A program made the translations under genes and the position numbers. From Actinobacteria bacterium HGW-Actinobacteria-2 (lineage in GTDB: Bacteria; Actinomycetota; Actinomycetes; Propionibacteriales; Propionibacteriaceae): a stretch of 64,000 nt of DNA. This document shows, in pieces, positions 6,792 to 18,574 of the stretch (positions are counted from its first letter, which is position 1; every line of letters begins with the position of its first letter). Below the pieces are notes generated by a model that saw only the letters and a list, made by a program, of their open reading frames with translations, searched no databases and was not told the DNA's origin. Location: contig PHEY01000001.1 of assembly GCA_002841335.1 (NCBI GenBank), positions 558,964-622,963 of the forward strand, given 5' to 3'.

Positions 6792-9700
6792 ACTTCGTCG
6801 ACGGAACGGAACGAGTCCGCTCCGGGACGGCGGGAAAGGTCGATGCCGAACTCTTCGCTGGCTCGGTAGTCGTCCTCAGAGTCGCGGAGCTCCACCACGG
6901 TGCCGTCACTGGAGAGGACCTCCACGTTCAAGCACAGCGACTTCATTTCCTTGACCAGAACCTTGAACGACTCCGGGATGCCCGGCTCAGGGATGTTCTC
7001 GCCCTTGACGATCGCCTCGTAGACCTTCACGCGGCCGGGGACGTCATCGGACTTGATGGTGAGCAGCTCCTGCAGTGCCCAGGCAGCGCCATAGGCCTCC
7101 AGGGCCCACACCTCCATCTCACCGAAACGCTGGCCACCGAACTGCGCCTTACCGCCCAGCGGCTGCTGGGTGATCATCGAGTACGGACCGGTGGACCGGG
7201 CGTGGATCTTGTCGTCGACCAAGTGGTGCAGCTTCAGCATGTAGATGTAGCCGACGCCGACCGGATCGGGATACGGCTCACCGGAGCGACCATCGAACAG
7301 ACGCGCCTTGCCACCGGAGTTGACCAGCTTCATGCCATCGCGCTGCGGCAGACCGTTCTCCAGCAGGCCGGCGATCTCTTCCTCGTTGGCGCCGTCGAAC
7401 ACCGGCGTCGCCAAGCGGGACTCGCCCGGAACCTTCTCCAGACCGACCGTACGCAGGCGCTCAGCCCACGGCTCATCGACACCCTTGATGTCCCAGCCGG
7501 TCTTGGCGACCCACCCGAGGTGGGTCTCCAGCACCTGGCCGACGTTCATTCGGGAAGGCACACCCAGCGGGTTCAGCACGATGTCGACCGGCGTACCGTC
7601 CTCCATGAACGGCATGTCCTCGACGGGGAGAATCTTGGAGATAACACCCTTGTTGCCGTGACGGCCGGCGAGCTTGTCGCCGTTGGAAATCTTGCGCTTC
7701 TGAGCCACGTAGACCCGAACCAACTGGTTGACGCCCGGAGGCAGCTCGTCGTCCTCTTCGCGGTCGAAGACGCGTACGCCGATCACCGTGCCGGTCTCGC
7801 CGTGAGGAACCTTCATCGAGGTGTCGCGCACCTCGCGGGCCTTCTCACCGAAGATCGCGCGCAGCAGCCGCTCCTCCGGGGTCAGCTCGGTCTCACCCTT
7901 GGGGGTCACCTTGCCGACCAGGATGTCGCCGGTACCGACCTCAGCGCCGATGCGAATGATGCCGCGCTCGTCGAGGTTGGCCAGCATGTCTTCGCCCACG
8001 TTCGGGATGTCACGAGTGATCTCCTCGGCACCCAGCTTGGTGTCGCGGGCATCGATCTCGTGCTCTTCGATGTGGATGCTGGTCAGGATGTCGTCCTGCA
8101 CCAGACGCTGGGACAGGATGATCGCATCCTCGTAGTTGTGACCTTCCCAGGGCATGAACGCGACCAGCAGGTTGCGGCCCAGCGCCATCTCGCCACCGTC
8201 GGTGCAGGCACCGTCGGCCAGCGGCGAGCCGACCTCGACCCGCTGACCCGCTGACACCAGCGGACGCTGGTTGATGCAGGTCGCCTGGTTCGACCGGCGG
8301 AACTTCGCCAGCCGGTAGCTGGAGTAGGTGCCGTCGTCGTTGGTCACGTCGATGATGTCGGCGCTCACCGACGTCACCGCGCCGGCCTTGGCGGCCACCA
8401 GCACGTCACCGGCGTCGACCGCGCCGCGGTACTCCATACCGGTCCCCACGAACGGAGCCTCGTTACGGATCAGCGGCACAGCCTGACGCTGCATGTTGGC
8501 GCCCATCAGGGCTCGCGACGCATCGTCGTGCTCGAGGAACGGAATCAGGGCGGTGGCAACCGACACCATCTGGCGCGGCGACACGTCCATGTACTGCACC
8601 TGATCGGGCGCAACCTCATCGGCGTCACCATGTCGGCGACGCGACAGCACCCGGTCCTCCATGAAGGTGCCGTCCTCGGCCAGCTTCGCGTTGGCCTGAG
8701 CGACGACGTAACGGTCTTCCTCGTCGGCGGTCAGGTAGTCGATCTGATCGGTCACCCGACCGTCGACAACCTTGCGGTACGGGGTCTCGATGAAACCGAA
8801 GGCGTTGACCCGGGCGAAGGACGCCAGCGAGCCGATCAGGCCGATGTTCGGGCCTTCAGGGGTCTCGATCGGGCACATACGGCCGTAGTGGCTGTGGTGA
8901 ACGTCACGGACTTCCATGCCGGCGCGGTCACGGGACAGACCGCCCGGGCCCAGCGCGGACAGACGCCGCTTGTGAGTCAGGCCGGCCACCGGGTTGGTCT
9001 GATCCATGAACTGCGACAGCTGGGAGGTACCGAAGAACTCCTTCAGCGCCGCGGACACCGGACGGATGTTGATCAGGGTCTGCGGTGTGATCGCCTCGAT
9101 GTCCTGGGTGGTCATCCGGTCGCGCACGGTGCGCTCCAGACGTCCCAGACCGATCCGCAGCTGGTTCTGGATCAGCTCGCCGACGGTGCGCAGACGACGA
9201 TTGCCGAAGTGATCGATGTCGTCGGTCTCGACCGGCATGTCGCCGATCTGGGTGCGACCCTCGTGCAGGGACACGATGTAGCGGATCGCCGCGACGATGT
9301 CGTCGATGGTCAGCACCTGGGTGTCGAACGGCAGCCCCGTACCCAGCTTCTTGTTGATCTTGTAGCGACCAACCTTGGCCAGGTCGTACCGCTTCGGGTT
9401 GAAGTAGTAGTTCTCCAGCATCTGCTGGGCGGCCTCACGCGTCGGCGGCTCGCCCGGGCGCAGCTTGCGGTAGATGTCGAGCAGCGCCTCGTCGGTGTTG
9501 GCGGTGTGATCCTTCTCCAGGGTCAGCCGCATCGACTCGAACTCGCCGAACTCGGCCAGGATCTGCTCGTTGGTCCAGCCCAAGGCCTTCAGCAGCACGG
9601 TGACGTTCTGCTTGCGCTTGCGGTCGACGCGGACGCCGACCATGTCGCGCTTGTCGATCTCGAACTCCAGCCAGGCACCACGGCTCGGGATCATCTTGCA

Positions 9701-10261
9701 GGTGAAGATGTCCTTGTCCGAGGTCTTGTCGGCGGTCTGCTCGAAGTACACACCCGGCGAACGCACCAACTGGGACACGACCACGCGCTCGGTGCCGTTG
9801 ATGATGAACGTGCCCTTGTCGGTCATCAGCGGGAAGTCGCCCATGAACACGGTCTGGCTCTTGATCTCGCCGGTCTCGTGGTTCATGAACTCCGCGGTCA
9901 CGAACAACGGCGCCGCGTAGGTGAAGTCCTGATCCTTGCACTCCTCAGTGGTGTGCTTGGGCTCCTCGAACCGATTGTCGCGGAAGGACAGCGACATGGT
10001 CTGCGACAAATCCTCGATCGGGGAGATCTCTTCGAAGATCTCCTCCAGGCCGGATTTGGTGTTGACATCGGTCCTACCCTCGGACTTAGCCGCGGCGACC
10101 CGGTTGGCCCAGGTCTCGTTGCCGATCAGCCAGTCAAAGGACTCGACCTGAAGATCGAGAAGATTCGGTACCTCGAGCGGTTCATGGATCTTCGCGAACG
10201 AGATCCTGCCGCTGGGTGAGACAACATTGGTGTTCTTCGACGCAGTGCGCGAGACGGCCAA
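6788..10261 (-). CDS. rpoB: DNA-directed RNA polymerase beta subunit
   Basis: Catalytic beta subunit, 1157 aa from the chosen start. I chose a TTG at 10259-10261 (protein [19 protein letters not shown]), because GGAAGGA lies exactly 7 nt before it and the conserved [18 protein letters not shown] follows. A longer reading would begin at 10306 but has no such site. The rifampicin-binding region reads [20 protein letters not shown], with the D, H and S hot-spot residues of sensitive enzymes and a T where E. coli has N518. The ring of motifs [19 protein letters not shown] and the C-terminal [16 protein letters not shown] are present. Transcribed with rpoC and rpiB. Confidence 0.98.
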
Positions 10262-10275
10262 GGTGGGGTCCTTCC
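10259..10275 (-). promoter_or_regulatory. Ribosome binding site fixing a TTG start for rpoB
   Basis: On the minus strand GGAAGGA (10269-10275) is followed by 7 nt and TTG (10259-10261). This near-ideal spacing makes the TTG the most likely rpoB start. Confidence 0.8.
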
Positions 10276-10359
10276 AGAAGCCCGGGCGTTGCCGGTTTCG
10301 ATGCACGCAGAACGGCCCGCGTCAAGACACGGGTCGTCGATAGCGATGGGCAAAGCGAT

Positions 10360-10388
10360 AGCCTACCCGACTCCCCGCCTCTCCGCAA
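10360..10388 (-). promoter_or_regulatory. Proximal rpoB promoter
   Basis: Minus strand TTGCGG, 17-nt spacer, TAGGCT. The predicted start near 10353 gives a leader of about 90 nt before the rpoB TTG. Confidence 0.65.
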
Positions 10389-10458
10389 ATGGATGAGACC
10401 CGCTGCTTCACCTTGTCATATCGGCGGCGCTAGCGCTAGCACCCCGCCCTCAGGCAAT

Positions 10459-10506
10459 GGACCGCGTCGGCCAGCAAGACACTCCCCCGGGCCGACGAGC
10501 AGGTCC
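10459..10506 (-). promoter_or_regulatory. Hairpin B in the rpoB upstream region
   Basis: CGTCGGCC/GGCCGACG (8 bp) extended outward by GGACC/GGTCC (5 bp) across a small asymmetric internal loop, with a 17-nt apical loop. It would be part of the leader if rpoB is read from the distal promoter. Confidence 0.5.
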
Positions 10507-10578
10507 CATCTGCCAAGGTTGTGCGGCGGAATCAAGGTAGGCGTCCGGTCCTCCGGCAACTGCCCCCGAACACACCTA

Positions 10579-10633
10579 GGGCCGGTGCCTGTAGGCAGCG
10601 GGAGGGGTTGCCGCACCTTACAGTCACCGGCCC
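10579..10633 (-). promoter_or_regulatory. Hairpin A in the rpoB upstream region (terminator or leader structure)
   Basis: GGGCCGGTG/CACCGGCCC (9 bp), one mismatch, CTGTA/TACAG (5 bp), then an inner arm of about 7 pairs. It follows the regulator gene by about 50 nt, so it may end that transcript, although no U-run follows; otherwise it is a folded leader of rpoB. Confidence 0.55.
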
Positions 10634-10678
10634 AGGCGGTGTACTCATCCGACGCGCTAGGGGGGCGCCGACTGGTAC

Positions 10679-10708
10679 TAGTTAATCAGACTTGACTGAT
10701 GGTGTCAA
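10679..10708 (-). promoter_or_regulatory. Distal rpoB-directed promoter P2, peptide-promoter-like
   Basis: Minus strand TTGACA (10703-10708), 18-nt spacer containing GTCAAGT, then TAACTA (10679-10684). A further TTGACAA lies 11 nt upstream. The element overlaps the last codons and stop of the regulator gene. Its layout nearly repeats that of the peptide-gene promoter at 12005-12034, which suggests control by the same regulator (inference). Confidence 0.55.
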
Positions 10709-11962
10709 GTCCTTGTCAAGAAAATTCTCGGCACCTGCGTAGACACTCATCCGCCACGCGTCCACCGCAGCCCCCATCCGGCCCTCGTTCTCCAGGGAGG
10801 TGGCCGCCGCCCGGTAGGCATCGCGAGCCTCGTCCACACGCCCGAGCGCCGCCAACGCCTCAGCCAGAATCAACTCGGAGTTGCTACGCGAAACCGCCTC
10901 AGCGCCGAGCTCAGGATCAGCAAGTACCTCGCGGGCGATGCGAAGTGCCTCCTCGGCGTCGCCACTGCGCAGCGCGAACTGAGCTTGCACCTGCCGCAGC
11001 TCGGCGAGGTCATAGGAGTTGCCCAGGATCTCCAGGCCGAGCGCCGCAGTCTGAATGAGCTCTGCGACACCGTCGACGATGCCGGCCCCCAGGAGACAGC
11101 TGGCTGCGGAGCGGTGATAGCGGGACCACAGACGGAGGTCCCGGCGTGCATCCAACAGGCCCTTGGCGTTGCGGTGGTGCTCGATCCCGGCCTCGGCATT
11201 GCCGGCCGCGAACTCCGCGGTACCCAGTGCCCACTCGATCATTCCTCGGGAATGATCGGAGGTGAGTTGCGGCTCGAGCTCCTTCAACCGGAGCAGGTAG
11301 CGACGGCTCTCCGTCGGTGAGTGGCCGGCCTCAGACATGGCGCTGACAAGGGCCATCAAGGCCTCGGCCGCAATGATTGGCTGCGCCGAGGCGGATGCCT
11401 CGACCGCGCGAGCCCCAAACGCCACCGCCCAGCCCAAACGGTCAGCCGCCCGGTAGGCGATCGAGGTCAACGACAATGCCTGTGATCGCGCCACCGCGAA
11501 TCGCCTGGCCGTCGGGTGCTCGGTCAGCCGCTCGGCCAACTCCGCAGCACTCTCGAACTCGCCGGCCGAGAACCTCGCCTGAGCGAGCAGGTACAACGCT
11601 TCCCATTCACGCCCCGAGTCACCGGCGGCGTGCGCGGCTTCCGCAGCCTGCTGGGCGTGCCGGGCGGCAGCCTTCCAGTCGTGGTCGGACCAGGCCCGTT
11701 CAGCAACCAACAGGTCCTCGATCGGGTCATGCACCACTTGCAGGGCGTCCGGCTTGGCCGTCGCACCCCACTCCAGCAGCGACAGACCGAGCCGACGGGA
11801 CAGAAACTCGACCACCTCTGGCGTCGCGACGCGGCGACCGCTCTCCAGGTGGGAGATGTAACTGCCTGAGTACTTGTCACCACCCAGTTCCGCCTGGGAT
11901 AGACCCTTACCTCGGCGTGCCTTACGCAGGGCTGCGCCGAACTCGACAGCACGGGTGCTCAC
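10682..11962 (-). CDS. XRE-family regulator with TPR-like sensor domain, RRNPP-like
   Basis: 426-aa putative DNA-binding regulator. Residues about 7-62 form an XRE helix-turn-helix (LRKARRGKGLSQAELG, then SYISHLESGRR). Residues about 85-415 are alanine-rich paired helices (AAARHAQQAAEAAHAAGD, AGEFESAAELAERL, GDAEEALRIAREV, LGRVDEARDAYRAA) typical of tetratricopeptide repeats. This two-part design is that of RRNPP receptors such as PlcR, NprR and Rgg, which bind short peptides in their TPR domain. I chose the GTG at 11960-11962 because AGGAGGA lies just upstream; an in-frame TTG at 12001 lacks a site. A divergent 53-aa secreted-peptide gene starts 111 nt away, with GTCAA half-sites between. 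It sits between rplL and rpoB, where actinobacteria usually have little. A peptide ligand is inference. Confidence 0.85.
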   Translation of the reverse strand: MSTRAVEFGAALRKARRGKGLSQAELGGDKYSGSYISHLESGRRVATPEVVEFLSRRLGLSLLEWGATAKPDALQVVHDPIEDLLVAERAWSDHDWKAAARHAQQAAEAAHAAGDSGREWEALYLLAQARFSAGEFESAAELAERLTEHPTARRFAVARSQALSLTSIAYRAADRLGWAVAFGARAVEASASAQPIIAAEALMALVSAMSEAGHSPTESRRYLLRLKELEPQLTSDHSRGMIEWALGTAEFAAGNAEAGIEHHRNAKGLLDARRDLRLWSRYHRSAASCLLGAGIVDGVAELIQTAALGLEILGNSYDLAELRQVQAQFALRSGDAEEALRIAREVLADPELGAEAVSRSNSELILAEALAALGRVDEARDAYRAAATSLENEGRMGAAVDAWRMSVYAGAENFLDKDLTPSVKSD

Positions 11963-11994
11963 CGGTCCTCCTGTCATCTGTACCGCATTCAAAT

Positions 11995-12022
11995 CTGTCA
12001 AATCTTGACAGACTAGTCAAGT
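11995..12022. promoter_or_regulatory. Operator-like GTCAA/TTGAC cluster between regulator and peptide gene
   Basis: CTGTCAA-ATC-TTGACAG is a 7-bp inverted repeat (11995-12011), directly followed by the palindrome GACTAGTC and a third half-site GTCAAGT (12016-12022). One more GTCAA lies at 12050-12054. The cluster covers the -35 of the peptide promoter and the start region of the regulator, a typical place for an XRE operator. Confidence 0.6.
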
Positions 12023-12034
12023 ATTGGCTAGCTT
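12005..12034 (+). promoter_or_regulatory. Promoter P1 of the secreted-peptide gene
   Basis: TTGACA (12005-12010), 18-nt spacer containing GTCAAGT, TAGCTT (12029-12034). The predicted start near 12041 leaves about 33 nt to the peptide ATG. The consensus -35 is itself a half-site of the operator cluster. Confidence 0.7.
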
Positions 12035-12073
12035 TTCGACATCAGGCCAGTCAAGAGAGAGGCTTCGTCCGAA

Positions 12074-12235
12074 ATGAACATCCGCCGGATTATCGTCACC
12101 GCAACCGTCGCCGGTGCTATCGCTGCTCTTCCGTTCACTCTGATCGCCTCCAGCGCCAACACCGCCGGGTTCGTCGGAACGTCGAAGATCGTCACCATCC
12201 AGGGCGGTCAGGGCAACTGGCCTCTCGCCCGCTGA
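12074..12235 (+). CDS. Short secreted peptide, candidate signalling pheromone precursor
   Basis: A 53-aa gene too short for standard gene-size cut-offs. It has a short basic start (MNIRR), a hydrophobic stretch of about 20 residues (IIVTATVAGAIAALPF then TLIA), a likely signal-peptidase site after SSA (residue 28) and a 25-residue tail ending GGQGNWPLAR. GAGAGAGG lies 11 nt before the ATG, promoter P1 upstream and a 12-bp-stem terminator 55 nt downstream, so it is a complete one-gene transcript. It is divergent from an XRE-TPR regulator, the arrangement known for Shp/Rgg and PapR/PlcR pairs. I know no family for it. Which part would be the active signal is unknown; the C-terminal residues are the usual place. 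A small bacteriocin-like or structural peptide is the alternative. Confidence 0.75.
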   Translation: MNIRRIIVTATVAGAIAALPFTLIASSANTAGFVGTSKIVTIQGGQGNWPLAR

Positions 12236-12289
12236 CCTCGTCAGCACTCCCACCCCCATAGTCAACACTCACACCACCTCCAGAAGAGA

Positions 12290-12323
12290 AGGATGGCGGG
12301 TGTCGCCAGATACCCGCCATCCT
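12290..12323 (+). terminator. Terminator after the peptide gene
   Basis: AGGATGGCGGGT and ACCCGCCATCCT form a perfect 12-bp stem with a 10-nt loop, followed by a pyrimidine-rich run. It closes the peptide transcript before the convergent rplL terminator. Confidence 0.8.
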
Positions 12324-12366
12324 CCTTCCCCTAGTCAGACCTGCAGGGCCGCCACCCTCGGTCACA

Positions 12367-12410
12367 AGCCAACAGGGGCCGCAACCATTCGGTTGCGGCC
12401 CCTGTTGGCT
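12367..12410 (-). terminator. Terminator after rplJL
   Basis: A perfect 20-bp inverted repeat with a 4-nt loop, 13 nt after the rplL stop. The inner arms are CCGCAACC and GGTTGCGG. There is no long U-run, as is common in actinobacteria. It separates rplJL from the regulator cassette and rpoB. Confidence 0.85.
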
Positions 12411-12423
12411 GTGAATCAAGCGG

Positions 12424-12822
12424 TCACTTGACGCTCACCGCAGCGCCGGCGGCCTCGAGGGCCTCCTTGGCCTTGGCAGCAACGTCGCGGGCAACCTTCT
12501 CCAGGATGGCCTTCGGAGCGGCCTCAACCAGAGCCTTGGCCTCGGCCAGACCCAGGTTGGTCAGCGCGCGGACCTCCTTGATGACCTGGATCTTCTTGTC
12601 GCCAACGGAATCCAGGATCACGTCGACCTCGTTGGACTCTTCCTCAGCGGCAGAGTCATCGGCGCCACCGGCGGCCGGGGCGGCAGCGGCGGCCACGGCC
12701 ACCGGAGCAGCGGCGGTCACGCCGAAGGTGTCTTCGAACAGCTTCACGAACTCGGAGAGCTCGATCAGGGTCATCTCCTTGAATGCCTCAAGGAGCTCGT
12801 CAGTGGTGAGCTTCTTCGCCAT
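12424..12822 (-). CDS. rplL: 50S ribosomal protein L7/L12
   Basis: Multi-copy stalk protein that recruits translational GTPases. 132 aa: N-terminal dimer domain ([19 protein letters not shown]), an alanine/proline hinge at about residues 38-55 and the C-terminal domain with the factor-binding helix ([16 protein letters not shown]). I chose the second of two in-frame ATGs (12820-12822), since AAAGGA lies 8 nt before it but only 2 nt before the first. It starts 18 nt after rplJ and ends at a 20-bp hairpin terminator. Confidence 0.97.
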
Positions 12823-12840
12823 ATTCATGGTCCTTTCGGG

Positions 12841-13428
12841 TTACTCGGATGCAGCGTCAGCCGCGTCAGTAGTGGCCTCAGCAGCGGGAGCTGCATCGGT
12901 TGCCGGGGCATCCCCGGCGGGCTTCTGGGACTTCAGCGCCTCGAAGACGCGTGCCGCCTGCGAGAGCGGGGCGGCAAACAAGCCGACCGCCTTGGCGAGG
13001 TTCCCGTTCATGGCGCCGGCCAGCTTGGCCAGCAGCACTTCGCGAGATTCCAGATCGGCAAGCTTCTTGACAGCCTCGGCATCAAGGACGCGACCGTCCA
13101 TGACACCGCCCTTGATCACCAGAAGCGGGTGCGCCTTGGCGAAGTCACGAAGACCCTTCGCCACGGTGGCAACGTCACCGCGGATGAAGGCGATCGCAGT
13201 CGGACCGGTGAGGTTCTCCCCCAGGCCCTCGATACCCGCTTCGCGGGCTGCGATCAGAGTCAGCGTGTTCTTCGTCACGGCGTAGGTGGCGTCCGCACCC
13301 AAGGACCGGCGCAGTTCTTTCAGGTCCTTGACGGTGAGTCCGCGGTACTCGGTCAGCACAGCGGCCGAGGCAGTGTTGAACGCTTCGGTCAACTCTGCGA
13401 CGGTGGCTGCCTTGTCCGGCCTCGCCAT
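12841..13428 (-). CDS. rplJ: 50S ribosomal protein L10
   Basis: Stalk-base protein that anchors L7/L12 dimers to 23S rRNA and is known to repress its own mRNA. 195 aa: N-terminal rRNA-binding domain ([31 protein letters not shown]) and a C-terminal helix for L12 followed by an alanine-rich acidic tail rich in A, T and E. I chose the ATG at 13426-13428 because AAGGAG precedes it at 4 nt; an upstream in-frame ATG at 13443 lies within that site's own leader. The leader carries an attenuator. Confidence 0.96.
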
Positions 13429-13472
13429 GGGTCTCCTTCCCACTTCTCTTCGTAGCGCCGAAGATCACTGGC

Positions 13473-13505
13473 AAAGAAAAAACCCCGGTGCGCAGGCGAC
13501 CGGGG
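13473..13505 (-). terminator. Leader terminator (attenuator) before rplJ
   Basis: On the minus strand CCCCGGT, a 9-nt loop and ACCGGGG are followed by TTTTTTC and TTT, a textbook intrinsic terminator about 45 nt upstream of the rplJ ATG. Its loop (CGCCTGCGC) can instead pair with an upstream segment. Confidence 0.85.
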
Positions 13506-13587
13506 AAATGCTCATTGAGCTTCCATCATCACCTGCGCGGGTTTTATCGGCCCTGACGAATCAGGACCGCACCAGCGGTCTTCGGCA
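13506..13587 (-). promoter_or_regulatory. L10 leader with antiterminator segment
   Basis: Leader RNA between the rplJ promoter and the attenuator. The segment AAAACCCGCGCAGG (13532-13545, minus strand) can pair with the terminator: GCGCAGG with the loop CCTGCGC, and AAAACCC with GGGTTTT of the 3' arm and U-run. This is a mutually exclusive antiterminator. The position matches the known L10 (rplJ) leader in which L10-L12 binds its own mRNA. Confidence 0.7.
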
Positions 13588-13593
13588 GCGCTC

Positions 13594-13623
13594 AGTCTAC
13601 GGGGATCACACGCCGGGGACCAA
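13594..13623 (-). promoter_or_regulatory. Promoter of rplJ-rplL
   Basis: Minus strand TTGGTC, 18-nt spacer, TAGACT. The predicted start near 13587 gives a leader of about 160 nt holding the attenuator. Confidence 0.6.
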
Positions 13624-13666
13624 ATCCGCACTCCGCCACTCCCCCGTCCAGGCCCCGAAAACAGCA

Positions 13667-13693
13667 GTGCCCCGAGCCAACGGCTCGGGGCAC
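13667..13693 (-). terminator. Terminator after rplA
   Basis: GTGCCCCGAGCC and GGCTCGGGGCAC form a perfect 12-bp stem with a 3-nt loop, 14 nt after the rplA stop. It ends the secE-nusG-rplK-rplA transcript before the rplJ promoter. Confidence 0.85.
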
Positions 13694-13707
13694 CTGCCAG
13701 ATTCAGT

Positions 13708-14409
13708 TCACTCAGCGCTGGGCTTGGCGCGCTGTGGGTCGATCGCCACGCCCGGACCCATGGTCGAGGCGGCAGTGATCTTCTTGATGTAGCGACCCTT
13801 GGAGGCGCTCGGCTTGAGCCGCAGCACCTCGTCCATAGCGGCGAAGTAGTTCTCGCTGAGCTGCTGCTCAGTGAAGGACGCCTTGCCGACGATGAAGTGC
13901 AGGTTGGCGTGACGGTCCACGCGGAACTCGATCTTGCCACCCTTGATATCGCTCACCGCCTTGGCGACGTCCATGGTGACCGTGCCGGTCTTCGGGTTCG
14001 GCATCAGACCACGCGGGCCGAGCACGCGACCCAGACGACCGACCTTGCCCATCAGATCCGGGGTGGCCACGACCGCGTCGAAGTCGAGGTAGCCCTTGGC
14101 GACCTTGTCGATCAGTTCGTCGTCGCCGACCTCGTCAGCGCCGGCAGCGGCGGCTTCGGCAGCCTTCTCACCGGTGGCAAAGACCAGGACCCGTGCGGTC
14201 TTGCCCGTTCCGTTGGGAAGGTTGACGGTGCCACGCACCATCTGATCAGCCTTGCGCGGATCAACACCGAGGCGCATGACCACCTCGACGGTCTCGTCAA
14301 ACTTGGCTGAGGCGTTCGACTTCACCAGGCCCAGCGCCGCTTCGGGGCTGTACAGCTGGTCTACGTCGATCTTTTCGGCGGCGGCCCGGTAGGCCTTGCT
14401 TCGCTTCAT
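13708..14409 (-). CDS. rplA: 50S ribosomal protein L1
   Basis: Forms the mobile L1 stalk at the ribosomal E site and represses the L11 operon mRNA in well-studied bacteria. 233 aa, usual length, beginning [15 protein letters not shown], with the signature region [16 protein letters not shown] at about residues 130-145 and [13 protein letters not shown] near the C-terminal domain. It follows rplK by 88 nt and is closed by a 12-bp-stem terminator. Confidence 0.98.
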
Positions 14410-14497
14410 TCTGGTCTCCTTCGTGAATCGGGCCCTCGTGTGAGCCCAGTGCCAGGTGTGGTGCGGGCGCGATGCCCTCCCACAGGGTTTGGGTTGG

Positions 14498-14929
14498 TCA
14501 GCCTTCGACCTTCACGCCCATGGAGCGTGCGGTGCCGGCCACGATCTTCATGGCGGCGTCGACGTCGTTGGCGTTGAGGTCAGGCATCTTGGTTTCGGCG
14601 ATCTCGCGCACCTGCGCAGAGGTGATCGAACCGACGAAGTCCTTATGCGGACGAGCAGAACCACTCTGCAGGCCAGCAGCCTTCTTGATCATCTCCGCAG
14701 CCGGCGGCGTCTTGGTGATGAAGCTGAACGTGCGGTCTTCGTAGATGGTGATCTCGACCGGGATCACGTTGCCACGCATGGCCTCGGTCTCGGCGTTGTA
14801 CCGCTTGCAGAACTCCATGATGTTCACGCCGTGCGGACCGAGGGCGGTACCGACCGGCGGAGCAGGAGTGGCCGCGCCCGCGTTCAGGGCCACCTTGACG
14901 ATCGCGGCTACCTTCTTCTTGGGAGGCAT
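14498..14929 (-). CDS. rplK: 50S ribosomal protein L11
   Basis: Binds the GTPase-associated centre of 23S rRNA and takes part in stringent-response sensing. 143 aa, usual length: the proline-rich N-terminal domain ([20 protein letters not shown], residues about 21-40) and the C-terminal RNA-binding domain with AGTARSMGV at the end. It lies between nusG (66 nt upstream) and rplA in the conserved order. Confidence 0.98.
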
Positions 14930-14995
14930 TCTGTTTGGGTCCTTCTGGTTGATTGGTTCTTGCCGTCCGGCCGGCGGCCGGCGGCGCTGCGATGC

Positions 14996-15820
14996 CTAGA
15001 CTCGCTGGATCTGGCCGAGGGTCAGATCGACCGGGGTCTCCCGGCCGAGGATCTCGACCAGCGCCTTGAGGCGTTGGCTGTTCGCGTTGATCTCGGTGAT
15101 CGTCGCGTGCACCCCGGCAAAGGGACCGGCGACCACCATGACCGAATCTCCGACGTTGAAGTCGGCGATCTCGATCTTCTTGGGGCGGCTCTTGGTACCG
15201 CCGGTGGCGGCAGCCGCAGCCCGAGCCAAAGCGGCCGGGGCAAGCATCTTTTCCACTTCGTCGAGGCTCAGCGGCACCGGCGCGTTCGCGTGGGCCACGA
15301 AGCCGGTGACCGAGGGGGTGTGCCGCACGGCCGCCCAGGAGGCGTCGGTGAGGTCCATCCGGACCAGCACATAACCCGGCAGAACCGTACGAGTCACCGA
15401 CTTGCGGGCTCCGTTGCGGGTCTCGATGACCTCTTCGGTGGGCACGACCGCCTCGAAGATGTAGTCCTCCATGCCGAGGGTCTTCACGCGGTTGTCGAGG
15501 TTCTGCTTCACCCGATTCTCCATGCCGGAGTAGGTGTGAATCACGTACCAGTCGCCGATCTGGCTGCGCAGCTGCTGACGCAGCTCGGCCATCACGGCTT
15601 CCTCGTCGGCGTCCAGCGCGGCCGGCTCTTCCTCAGGCTCCTCGTCGCCCTCGGTCAGCGTGGCCAGCATGTCCGCGTCGGACTGGGTCTGGTCAGCACC
15701 GAAGTCGAGGCCCAGGTCGAGATCATCGGACTCGGCCGACTCGGGCATCCCGAGATCAATCTCGATCGCGTCGGAGTCGAGCTCGTCGAAGCCGCCATCG
15801 ATTGGGGTGTTGTCGCTCAC
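14996..15820 (-). CDS. nusG: Transcription termination/antitermination factor NusG
   Basis: Binds the RNA polymerase clamp to control pausing and couples it to Rho or the ribosome. 274 aa, longer than the roughly 180-aa E. coli protein because of an acidic N-terminal extension (residues 1 to about 90, rich in D, E and S), as is usual in actinobacteria. The NGN domain begins at WYVIHTYSGMENRVKQNL and the KOW domain is at GDSVMVVAGPFAGVHATI. It lies 15 nt after secE and 66 nt before rplK. Confidence 0.97.
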   Translation of the reverse strand: MSDNTPIDGGFDELDSDAIEIDLGMPESAESDDLDLGLDFGADQTQSDADMLATLTEGDEEPEEEPAALDADEEAVMAELRQQLRSQIGDWYVIHTYSGMENRVKQNLDNRVKTLGMEDYIFEAVVPTEEVIETRNGARKSVTRTVLPGYVLVRMDLTDASWAAVRHTPSVTGFVAHANAPVPLSLDEVEKMLAPAALARAAAAATGGTKSRPKKIEIADFNVGDSVMVVAGPFAGVHATITEINANSQRLKALVEILGRETPVDLTLGQIQRV

Positions 15821-15835
15821 AGGTCCTTCGCTTCC

Positions 15836-16273
15836 TTAGTTCTGGCTCGGGCTCTGGCCGAACAGCTGCAGGATCAGCGCACCGAACCCCAGGTCGAGCA
15901 GGGCCACGATGCCGATCATGATCAACACGAACACCAACACCACAATGAAGTACTGCTGGAGCTGAACCCAGGTCGGCCAGACGACCTTCTTCAGCTCACC
16001 GATTGCCTCACGGACGAACTGCACCGGGGTGGTCCGCTTACGGTCCGTCTCGGCGCCACTGGTGCGCTTAGCGGTGGCGTGACCCTTTCCGGCCTCAGCA
16101 GTGACCGGCTTCTTGCGAGTCGGTCGGGCGCCGGCAGCAGCCTTGGCGACCTGTTCGGACTCGGTGAGGTCGGTTTCGTCGATATCGTCCAGACCCATCG
16201 CCTCAAGCTCGGCGTCGCCGATGGGTGCGTCGGCAGGGACGTCAGCCGCAGCCCTGTCCTTCTTCTCCGCCAC
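15836..16273 (-). CDS. secE: Preprotein translocase subunit SecE
   Basis: Small clamp subunit of the SecYEG channel in the inner membrane. 145 aa: a charged N-terminal extension of about 85 residues (acidic, then K/R-rich), the conserved amphipathic helix (FVREAIGELKKVVWPTW) and one membrane span (YFIVVLVFVLIMIGIVALL). I chose the GTG at 16271-16273 because AAGGA lies 8 nt upstream; the longer reading to 16363 runs into tRNA-Trp. A single-span SecE with a long hydrophilic extension is normal for actinobacteria. Confidence 0.95.
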   Translation of the reverse strand: MAEKKDRAAADVPADAPIGDAELEAMGLDDIDETDLTESEQVAKAAAGARPTRKKPVTAEAGKGHATAKRTSGAETDRKRTTPVQFVREAIGELKKVVWPTWVQLQQYFIVVLVFVLIMIGIVALLDLGFGALILQLFGQSPSQN

Positions 16274-16336
16274 TTCGGCAATCCTTCTTTCGCTCGTTCG
16301 ATGGTGCTGGTTGGACGCCTGGTACGTCCGATCCAG

Positions 16337-16409
<73 letters not shown>

Positions 16410-16430
16410 CGGTGCCAAACCCCCGCCGAT

Positions 16431-16448
16431 CCGTGCCTCAGGGCACGG
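16431..16448 (-). terminator. Small hairpin between metG and tRNA-Trp
   Basis: CCGTGCC and GGCACGG with a 4-nt loop. It lies between the tRNA promoter and the tRNA, so it is either a weak end for metG read-through or part of the tRNA leader. Confidence 0.4.
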
Positions 16449-16478
16449 CGCAGCAGGCACTTAGCCGCCAAGAACCAG

Positions 16479-16508
16479 ATTGTACGGGTTAACAGAAGGC
16501 GAGTCGAA
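16479..16508 (-). promoter_or_regulatory. Promoter of tRNA-Trp and secE-nusG-rplK-rplA
   Basis: Minus strand TTCGAC, 18-nt spacer, TACAAT. The -10 is close to perfect and lies about 70 nt before the tRNA. Confidence 0.6.
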
Positions 16509-16519
16509 CCGGCGCACTG

Positions 16520-18574
16520 TCACCGCACTCGCATTCCCGGGGTTGCCCCGGCATCAGGCTCCAACAAGAAGATTCCCGGCTCGACTGCCGCGTCGGCGTG
16601 ACCCGCCGCCAGCACCATTCCCTCACTCACCCCGAACCGCATGGTTCGCGGTGCCAGGTTCGCCACAACCACCGTGAGCCGTCCGACGAGGTCTTCCGGT
16701 CGGTAGGCCGAGGAGATGCCGGAGAAGATCGTGCGCGGGCTCGGCTCGCCGACGTCGACGGTGAGCTGCAACAGCTTGGTGCTGCCGTCCACGGCGGACG
16801 CAGCCACGATCCGGGCCACCCGAAGGTCGACCGCAGCGAAGGAGTCGATGGTGATCTGATCGGCCAACGCCTCGCCACCCGGAGTCACCACCGGTTCTGG
16901 CTCGATCGCCGCGACCGCGGGCTCGAACAACTGCTCGACCAACTCGGCATCCACGCGCTGCATCAGATGGGCGTAGCGACCGATGGTCCGGCCTCCCAAC
17001 GTTGCGGCGGTATCGTCCCAAGTGAACTGCTCGGTACCCAGGAAGTCCGCCACCGCCGAAGCCGTGGCCGGCACCACTGGGGCCAGCAGGATGGTGAGGA
17101 TCCGGAAGGCCTCGATGCCGGTGCTGCAAGCCTGGTGAAGCTCGGTCTCGGCACCTTCGACCTTGGCCAGCTCCCACGGCTTGTGAGCCTCGACGTAGGT
17201 GTTCACCTTGTCGGCGAGCGCCATGATCTCGCGCAGCGCTTTTCCGAACTCCCGGGTCTCGTAGAACTCGGCCACCACCGGCACCTGAGCGCGCAGGTCG
17301 GCCAACAAGACATCACCGTCGGCACCCAGGTCAGTGGCCAGACATCCGTCGAAGCGCTTGCTGAGGAAGCCGGCCACTCGACTGGCGATGTTGACGTACT
17401 TGCCGACCAGGTCGGAGTTCACCCGGGTGACGAAGTCGCTGGGCGTGAAGTCGACATCCTCCACGTGGGAGTTCAGCTTCGCCGCGATGTAGTACCGCAG
17501 CCAGTCGGGGTTGAGTCCCAGCTCCAGATAGCGAAGCGGGCTGATGCCGGTCCCCCGGCTCTTGCTCATCTTCTCTTCGCTCACCGTGATGAAGCCGTGC
17601 ACGTAGACGTTGTCGGGCACCTTGCGGCCGGAGAACTTCAGCATCGCCGGCCAGAACAGCGTGTGGAAGTAGACGATGTCCTTTCCGATGAAGTGAATCT
17701 GCTCCACTTCGGGGTCGGCCAGGAAGGCGTCCACGTCCTTACCCAGCTTGCCGAAGAGGTTCACCAGCGAGGCCAGGTAGCCGATCGGCGCGTCCAGCCA
17801 CACATAGAAGTACTTGCCGTCAGCGTCGGGGATCGGAATGCCGAAGTACGGCGCATCGCGGGAGATGTCCCAGTCGGACAGGCCACCGCTGCCATCGGGG
17901 TTGGTGACGAACCATTCGCGCACCTTGTTGGCCACCCCGGGCTGCAACTTGCCGTCCTGCGTCCAGCCCTGAAGGAACTCCACGCAGCGCGGATCGGACA
18001 GACGGAAGAAGTAATGCTCGCTGCTTCGAAGCTCCGGAGTAGCACCCGACAAGGCCGAATACGGGTTGATCAGGTCGGTGGGTGCGTAGACCGCGCCACA
18101 TACCTCGCAGGAGTCGCCGTACTGATCGGCCGCACCACACTTGGGGCAGGTGCCCTTGATGTAGCGGTCGGGCAGGAACATGCCCTTGACCGGATCGAAG
18201 AACTGTTCGACCTCACGGACGTCGATCAGCCCGGCATCACGCAGGCCGAGGTAGATCGACTGCGCCAGGGCGGTGTTCTCGGGGCTGTCGGTGGAGTGCC
18301 AGTTGTCGAAGGAGATGCTGAACCCGTCCAGGTAGGCCTGGCGGCCCGAGGCGATCCCCGCGACGAACTGCTGCGGGGTCAGGCCCGCCTTCTCCGCCGC
18401 GATCATGATCGGAGCGCCGTGGGCATCGTCGGCGCCAACGAAGTACACCTTGGCCCCGCGCATCCGCTGGTAGCGCACCCAGATGTCAGCCTGGATGTAC
18501 TCCATCATGTGACCGATGTGGAACGGTGCGTTGGCGTACGGCAGGGCTGTCGTGACGAACAGCGTCCGGGTCAT
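16520..18574 (-). CDS. metG: Methionine--tRNA ligase
   Basis: Class I aminoacyl-tRNA synthetase that charges tRNA-Met. 684 aa from the ATG at 18572-18574 ([17 protein letters not shown]), preceded by GAGAGG. The HIGH motif is FHIGHMMEY (about residue 18), a zinc knuckle has CPKC and CEVC, and the KMSKS motif is [11 protein letters not shown]. The last about 110 residues are an EMAP/Arc1p tRNA-binding domain ([15 protein letters not shown]) that E. coli-type MetG uses to dimerise. The tRNA-Met at 22457-22529 is one substrate. It lies 43 nt after the aminotransferase gene, probably co-transcribed. Confidence 0.97.

Follow-up and report, generated by a model that had tools for sequence, protein, structure and literature searches.

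Between the rplL and rpoB genes of Actinobacteria bacterium HGW-Actinobacteria-2, a member of the Propionicimonas group with a genome of 2.92 Mb, lie a gene for a 426-amino-acid regulator, which joins a helix-turn-helix (HTH) domain to tetratricopeptide repeats (TPR), and a divergent open reading frame (ORF) for a peptide of 53 amino acids that appears, from its sequence pattern, to carry an export signal ("secreted-type" is used in this sense throughout). The locus was studied in a stretch of 64,000 nucleotides, positions 558964-622963 of contig 2 (PHEY01000001.1), here called the window. We read it, with a probability of about 0.7, as a self-contained actinobacterial peptide-sensing switch in which an RRNPP-like receptor controls its own peptide and a small RNA, and possibly also rpoBC. 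An earlier note on this DNA had likened the two genes to the receptor-peptide pairs of RRNPP systems and had placed them next to the RNA polymerase genes; the likeness is supported by pairing in 35 of 35 family genomes, by repeated peptide cores and by an HTH and TPR structural model, and the neighbourhood is confirmed, with the pair sitting between rplL and rpoB.

The pairing of the two genes carries most of the argument. Homologues of the regulator are present in 21 of 60 relatives at an E-value of 1e-5 and in 35 of the 198 genomes of the family at 1e-12, and in all 35 of the latter a divergent secreted-type small ORF with a GxGxW-like core adjoins the regulator gene, its frame being broken in one genome (G166). 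These ORFs were chosen by their tail pattern or by a signal-sequence-like pattern alone; the one at L043 was picked by eye, and at L048, where the signal-like pattern offered several candidates, the ORF with a core was taken. The earlier note had suggested looking for conservation of the short ORF and its tail together with the regulator in relatives, and the outcome of that check does not refute its claim. Within the genus both the position and the sequence of the peptide ORF are conserved wherever the regulator is present (16 of 16 genomes, our own included), and searches for the regulator, the peptide and the structured RNA described below match the same 16 of 30 genomes. Across the family a peptide profile (A1) matches 20 of 198 genomes, 19 of which carry the regulator; this profile and the covariance model of the RNA (R1) necessarily match the rows on which they were trained, and the peptide of G175, which lies outside the training of the profile, was recovered beside its regulator. 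A profile match in G184 is likely a false positive, as this genome has no regulator and the match lies in a frame of 319 amino acids. A scan of named genomes with the single regulator protein found no relative, and with the regulator alignment it gave 23 loci, including Propionicimonas metagenome-assembled genomes, Micropruina, Desertihabitans, Auraticoccus, Brooklawnia and other Propionibacteriaceae. In G004 (L015, L022) the regulator gene as assembled is divided between two frames, and the peptide, the operators and the RNA match are intact. Both genes and their co-occurrence are thus established at the level of sequence.

The peptide gene occupies positions 12074-12235 of the plus strand, where conservation and a coding signal mark it, and is preceded by a motif resembling a ribosome-binding site (AGAGAGG, 12056-12062, plus strand). 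The precursor has a positively charged, hydrophobic N-terminus that resembles a signal sequence by pattern and ends in a C-terminal core, GGQGNWPLAR (12203-12232, plus strand), which is the predicted signal. The gene facing the regulator, with just this N-terminus and tail, had been described in the earlier note; it is present there and conserved. Congeneric tails read G-Q-G-[N/S/G]-[W/Y]-P with one to three further residues, and other genera have looser cores (GGEGWWP, GGFGDWP, GQGDWPF, GDHGVWP, SEGMWP, LGPWP, GDGNWKP, GEGHWKP) that are C-terminal or have a short extension after them. In four precursors the core occurs as a series of copies: L017/L046 has five of the AGGGIWPK type, and there are three copies each of GEGIWY in L045, of GGGIWYK in L056 and of DRGIWY in L057. 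Such repeats are hard to explain except as parts of a released peptide, and they suggest processing after export. Coding selection on the gene is likewise apparent from the substitutions: over 13 pairs of sequences, differences at the three codon positions numbered 127, 112 and 227, so that the third position took 227 of 466, and the ratio of non-synonymous to synonymous substitution rates (dN/dS) ranged from 0.04 to 0.96, being below 0.71 in 12 of the 13 pairs and 0.96 in one, where the pairs were hand-chosen and have some sequences in common. L045 and L057 are two regulators of a single genome (G125) whose peptides differ (GEGIWY and DRGIWY), which offers a natural test of specificity; the L057 regulator is cut by a contig end.

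Two similar operators frame the regulator gene. Operator 1 (11994-12026) lies in the intergenic gap and has the form TGTCAA-N3-TTGACA-N5-AGTCAAG, with an inverted-repeat core at 12005-12020; operator 2 (10692-10708), an inverted repeat of the form TTGAC-N7-GTCAA, falls inside the 3' end of the regulator's coding sequence, with an extra half-site TTGACA at 10714-10719. Comparison with relatives predicts a promoter over each of them. That of the peptide (12005-12034, plus strand) would use TTGACA at 12005-12010 as its -35 element and TAGCTT at 12029-12034 as a -10-like element, and that at operator 2 (10680-10708, minus strand), directed towards rpoB, would use TTGACA at 10703-10708 and the -10-like TTAACT at 10680-10685. 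In the relatives a -10-like hexamer lies about 17 bases past TTGACA, as does CATACT at operator 2 of L052 and L055. Exact sites of the form TTGAC-N5..8-GTCAA occur twice in the window against 0.08 expected, and none of 100 shuffles reached two. With spacers of N4..9, operator 1 is found at 31 of 36 regulator loci and operator 2 at 26 of 36, the latter being out of view at L056 and L057 owing to truncated regulators; both operators are present at 16 of 16 loci in the genus, and the six regulator-less congeners with readable DNA upstream of rpoB have no operator site there. The operators, and the geometry of their promoters in relatives, can be taken as established by these comparisons. As the operator overlaps the -35 element and the spacer, repression is suggested, and the regulator most likely acts as a repressor. 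The genome holds six exact sites, of which only the two at this locus contain TTGACA, and nine matches to a reversed control pattern (counted per strand); with four other sites that lack TTGACA set beside those nine controls, we claim no regulon elsewhere in the genome.

Downstream of operator 2, on the minus strand, conservation and covariation mark a structured RNA (10575-10677) with two predicted hairpins that have C-rich loops. The conserved block spans about 100 nucleotides 3' of the operator, its conservation ends after hairpin 2, beyond which the stretch up to rpoB differs widely in length. The loop of hairpin 1 contains a run of C, and that of the long hairpin 2 contains CCUCCC in Propionicimonas and Micropruina. 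From 15 sequences of both genera hairpin 2 alone is predicted, with compensatory double changes at 10 of its 15 pairs; from 14 congeneric sequences both hairpins are predicted, with double changes at 11 of 24 pairs, all of them in hairpin 2, whose compensation is thereby established. The covariance model recovers the RNA from 18 of the 198 genomes of the family, every one of which carries the regulator (18 of 35), at no more than about 85 bases downstream of the regulator match, and the matches in G004, G019, G166 and G175 lie outside the training set of the model. In three genomes a weak match to the model covers the same stretch on the opposite strand. The RNA is probably controlled by the regulator. 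Closer to rpoB, whose start is probably TTG 10261, a -10-like TAGGCT (10360-10365, minus strand) was recognised by eye as part of a separate rpoB-proximal promoter; by eye, too, the promoter-like element and short leader directly 5' of rpoB (10262-10366; L064-L069) look conserved with or without the regulator, as does the context of the rpoB start. Because rpoB would have a promoter-like element of its own and conservation stops short of it, we prefer a separate small RNA to an rpoB leader. Rfam gave no match on the RNA strand of the site up to an E-value of 1, and on the opposite strand a low-scoring match to HgcF far below its cut-off. That the RNA is 6C RNA proper was considered and found no support, as the best RF01066 match in the genome scores 25 bits against a cut-off of 47 and lies elsewhere. 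At L048, L054 and L019 no rpoB lies in the fetched flank, and a lipoprotein-like gene, not the C-rich RNA, comes after the regulator. Strict operator sites are retained upstream at L019, and L048 and L054 have only related half-site pairs.

The regulator is encoded on the minus strand at 10682-11962, from a GTG start preceded by the Shine-Dalgarno sequence AGGAGG (11968-11973, minus strand); at its longest the ORF has 439 amino acids from TTG 12001, as against 426 from GTG 11962. Pfam HTH and TPR matches mark it as a putative peptide receptor, and an AlphaFold2 model built from 31 sequences (predicted local distance difference test score, pLDDT, of 92.8) shows a DNA-binding HTH domain at codons 1-66 (11765-11962) and a TPR-type helical array at codons 80-408 (10739-11725, pLDDT mostly above 95), which may bind the peptide. 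Coordinates, Pfam matches and this confident model agree in bearing out the 426-amino-acid HTH protein with TPR-like helices of the earlier note. Residues of the TPR part that are invariant include W120, R171, W244, W279, R281 and D318. With Foldseek the model had 45 matches at an E-value of 1e-3 or below, LGN complexes and MalT domain III among them, and PrgX, PlcR-PapR7-DNA and Rap-peptide (CSF) stood at ranks 39, 41 and 45 with TM-scores, normalised by the query, of 0.24, 0.35 and 0.46. There is one match to the regulator in its own genome. PHROGs matches are to transcription regulators and align in or near the HTH, plasmid matches are mostly from Streptomyces, and a phage origin of the locus was discarded, as it had no match in the phage collection.

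Judged from translations read without a family scan, the neighbours of the pair in the window are a ribosomal protein gene, nusG-like and secE-like genes and RNA polymerase genes. The regulator lies on the strand of rpoBC, and the divergent peptide gene parts rpoBC from rplJL. In place of the 12-bp terminator that the earlier note had put after the peptide gene, we find a terminator-like hairpin 3' of it (12287-12326, 18-nucleotide arms, 89% paired) and a perfect hairpin with 20-nucleotide arms in the gap between it and the convergent rplL (12367-12410), which may act as a terminator in both directions; a terminator scan of the window gave one site (12294-12308, minus strand) against 1.3 in shuffles. 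The earlier note was right that no processing or import gene adjoins the pair, at least none that we could recognise among the neighbour translations. The genome has five matches to SBP_bac_5, the family of OppA-type proteins.

Profile searches in the order and class gave weaker homologues, of which 42 loci were examined (13 of 46 from outside the family in the order and 29 of 50 from outside our own genome in the class). A secreted-type ORF adjoins the regulator at 30 of the 42, divergently at 20 and convergently at 10, against 8 of 840 shuffled flanks and 1 of 42 on the other strands. At 26 of these 30 loci the ORF ends in CC or in CC and one residue, and at four it has a WP core. The divergent precursors of L126 and L127 repeat GNWPDPM, three times and twice respectively, with the final copy at the extreme C-terminus, and that of L135 contains IGWP twice. 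At ten loci (L115, L116, L118-L122, L124, L125 and L154; nine of them from a single further family of the order and the tenth from another part of the class) the ORF stands tail-to-tail with the regulator and ends in CC or CCL, so that gene order and tail differ and the pairing persists. At sixteen others (L136, L137 and L140-L153; 14 of them from one family, f21) divergent secreted-type ORFs of about 40 amino acids end in CC, and W-P precedes the CC in 7 of the 16. We put at slightly better than even the wider reading that the Actinomycetes possess a large undescribed superfamily of cytoplasmic HTH-TPR receptors with cognate secreted peptides, which would have W-P-type cores in the Propionibacteriaceae and some others and CC termini in further families, and that in the Propionicimonas-Micropruina group the peptide switches a small RNA with C-rich loops beside rpoBC.

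In the mechanism that we propose, the cytoplasmic HTH-TPR regulator would bind the intergenic operator and the similar one at its own 3' end and, from there, repress both promoters. The signal sequence of the precursor would direct its export, and trimming would leave a short C-terminal fragment around G-Q-G-N-W-P, which an oligopeptide permease may bring back into the cell. Binding of the peptide in the TPR groove would then release the promoters and raise the levels of the peptide, by positive feedback, of the regulator and of the RNA of about 100 nucleotides, whose two C-rich loops probably pair with G-rich ribosome-binding sites of target mRNAs.

In Rgg-SHP systems the receptor and peptide genes are divergent and share a control region, and the arrangement of our pair resembles theirs. 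Unlike in those systems, the precursor here is longer, looks like one with a signal sequence and has a different core. The TPR part of our regulator also matches TPR models, whereas the repeats of Rgg are degenerate according to the available part of PMC9765709. The same part of that source describes RRNPPA systems as HTH and TPR receptors with adjacent precursors, some repeated signals and permeases, and the locus shares with such systems (PlcR-PapR, NprR-NprX) an HTH and TPR receptor, a small precursor encoded next to it with a predicted export signal and a predicted C-terminal signal, the repetition of the signal in some precursors and oligopeptide permeases available in the genome. It differs from them in belonging to another phylum, in its Trp-containing cores or CC tails, in matching no RRNPP-specific model and in the structured RNA under a second operator. 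With 6C RNA (RF01066), whose C-rich loops bind mRNAs as reported in the available text of PMC9569102, the RNA would have in common two hairpins with C-rich loops, of which hairpin 2 is well supported here and hairpin 1 is conserved in sequence and free of double compensatory changes; unlike 6C RNA, it gives no covariance match at the site and differs in location and in its apparent control by an operator. The RRNPP surveys of PMC9765709 and PMC10075063 covered Firmicutes, the latter also viruses, in the parts available. Signals of actinobacteria are typically small molecules made by enzymes, as the available portion of PMC10075063 has it, and the accessible text of an actinobacterial review (PMC4748050) mentions cyclic or modified peptides and butyrolactones. 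A receptor-peptide pair of the present kind is not described in the available parts of PMC12849477 and PMC12445099, nor did our search of the literature on peptide signalling, in which coverage was thin for subscription papers and excluded bioRxiv, find such an actinobacterial pair.

Several observations weigh against the switch as we read it. Membership in RRNPP is unproven, because no RRNPP-specific model matches: Pfam and NCBIfam scans of the regulator gave nothing more specific than generic HTH and TPR models, besides unrelated models below threshold, general TPR proteins outrank the RRNPP structures in the Foldseek results, and a profile search of the PDB aligns ComR and PlcR, among the matches listed, through the HTH. 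Of the 14 congeners that lack the regulator, just four pass the limits on completeness and contamination, and rpoB was found in nine. Of the 35 genomes with the regulator, 16 have more divergent peptides that escaped the peptide profile; further out, 12 of the 42 distant homologues lack such an ORF, and the tail pattern behind the count of 30 was written after the peptides had been inspected. A strict sigma-70 promoter scan of the window found nothing, neither the peptide promoter nor that at operator 2, so that what stands of the earlier claim that the peptide gene has a promoter of its own is the TTGACA and the spacing seen in relatives. L017 and L045 lack both operators, and L048, L054 and L057 lack a strict operator 1. 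Hairpin 1 has double compensatory changes at 0 of 7 pairs, is unpredicted in the wider alignment and does not form in the minimum-energy folds of 5 out of 25 sequences. The folding energy of the RNA is unremarkable (z of -1.5), and no such RNA was seen at L017, L045, L048, L054 and L019.

The alternatives bear on the output of the switch or on the role of the peptide. The transcript from operator 2 might be a long 5' leader of rpoBC in which the hairpins act, so that the switch would tune synthesis of the RNA polymerase core. This is unlikely, though it deserves to be kept in mind: operator 2 is directed at rpoB, which is present downstream, within the fetched flank, at 30 of the 36 loci with a regulator and at 16 of 16 in the genus, the regulator is co-oriented with rpoBC, and the peptide gene splits rpoBC from rplJL; however, rpoB seems by eye to have a proximal promoter-like element of its own in genomes with and without the regulator, conservation ends past hairpin 2 at a variable distance from rpoB, and hairpin 2 could itself be a terminator.

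The peptide, for its part, might be a ligand with no role between cells, acting inside the cell or reporting on the secretion pathway without any quorum function. The locus has no recognisable gene for import or processing, and Opp proteins also serve nutrition, as such a role would allow, but the signal-sequence-like N-termini and the repeated cores, which suggest processing after export, make it improbable. We regard as just as improbable, or a shade more so, that the small gene encodes an effector, a secreted antimicrobial or toxin-like product that the regulator merely represses without sensing it. Divergent XRE-type repressors beside small secreted genes are known from bacteriocin and toxin-antitoxin settings; against this, the neighbours of the pair (read from translations, without a family scan) include no recognisable gene for immunity, modification or transport, the short core is conserved and is repeated in four precursors, the regulator has a long TPR array, and the pairing recurs in the class. 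That the 53-amino-acid ORF is a chance frame beside an ordinary XRE regulator we consider next to impossible. Small ORFs are indeed common in GC-rich DNA, and 96 of at least 30 amino acids overlap positions 8000-17000 of the window; yet this one accompanies the regulator in 35 of 35 family genomes, shows coding-type substitutions and is absent together with the regulator in the genus, and its conservation in position and sequence in all 16 congeners with the regulator argues that it is no product of chance.

Actinobacteria are a phylum known for antibiotics, and peptide communication of the kind proposed here is best known from another phylum. A receptor-peptide pair found throughout the class would open RRNPP-type signalling in Actinobacteria, and the conserved cores supply synthetic peptides that are testable at once. 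The RNA output, if true, would be an unusual link from a peptide signal to control by a small RNA, and in the Propionicimonas-Micropruina group cell-cell signalling would then feed directly into RNA-based regulation.
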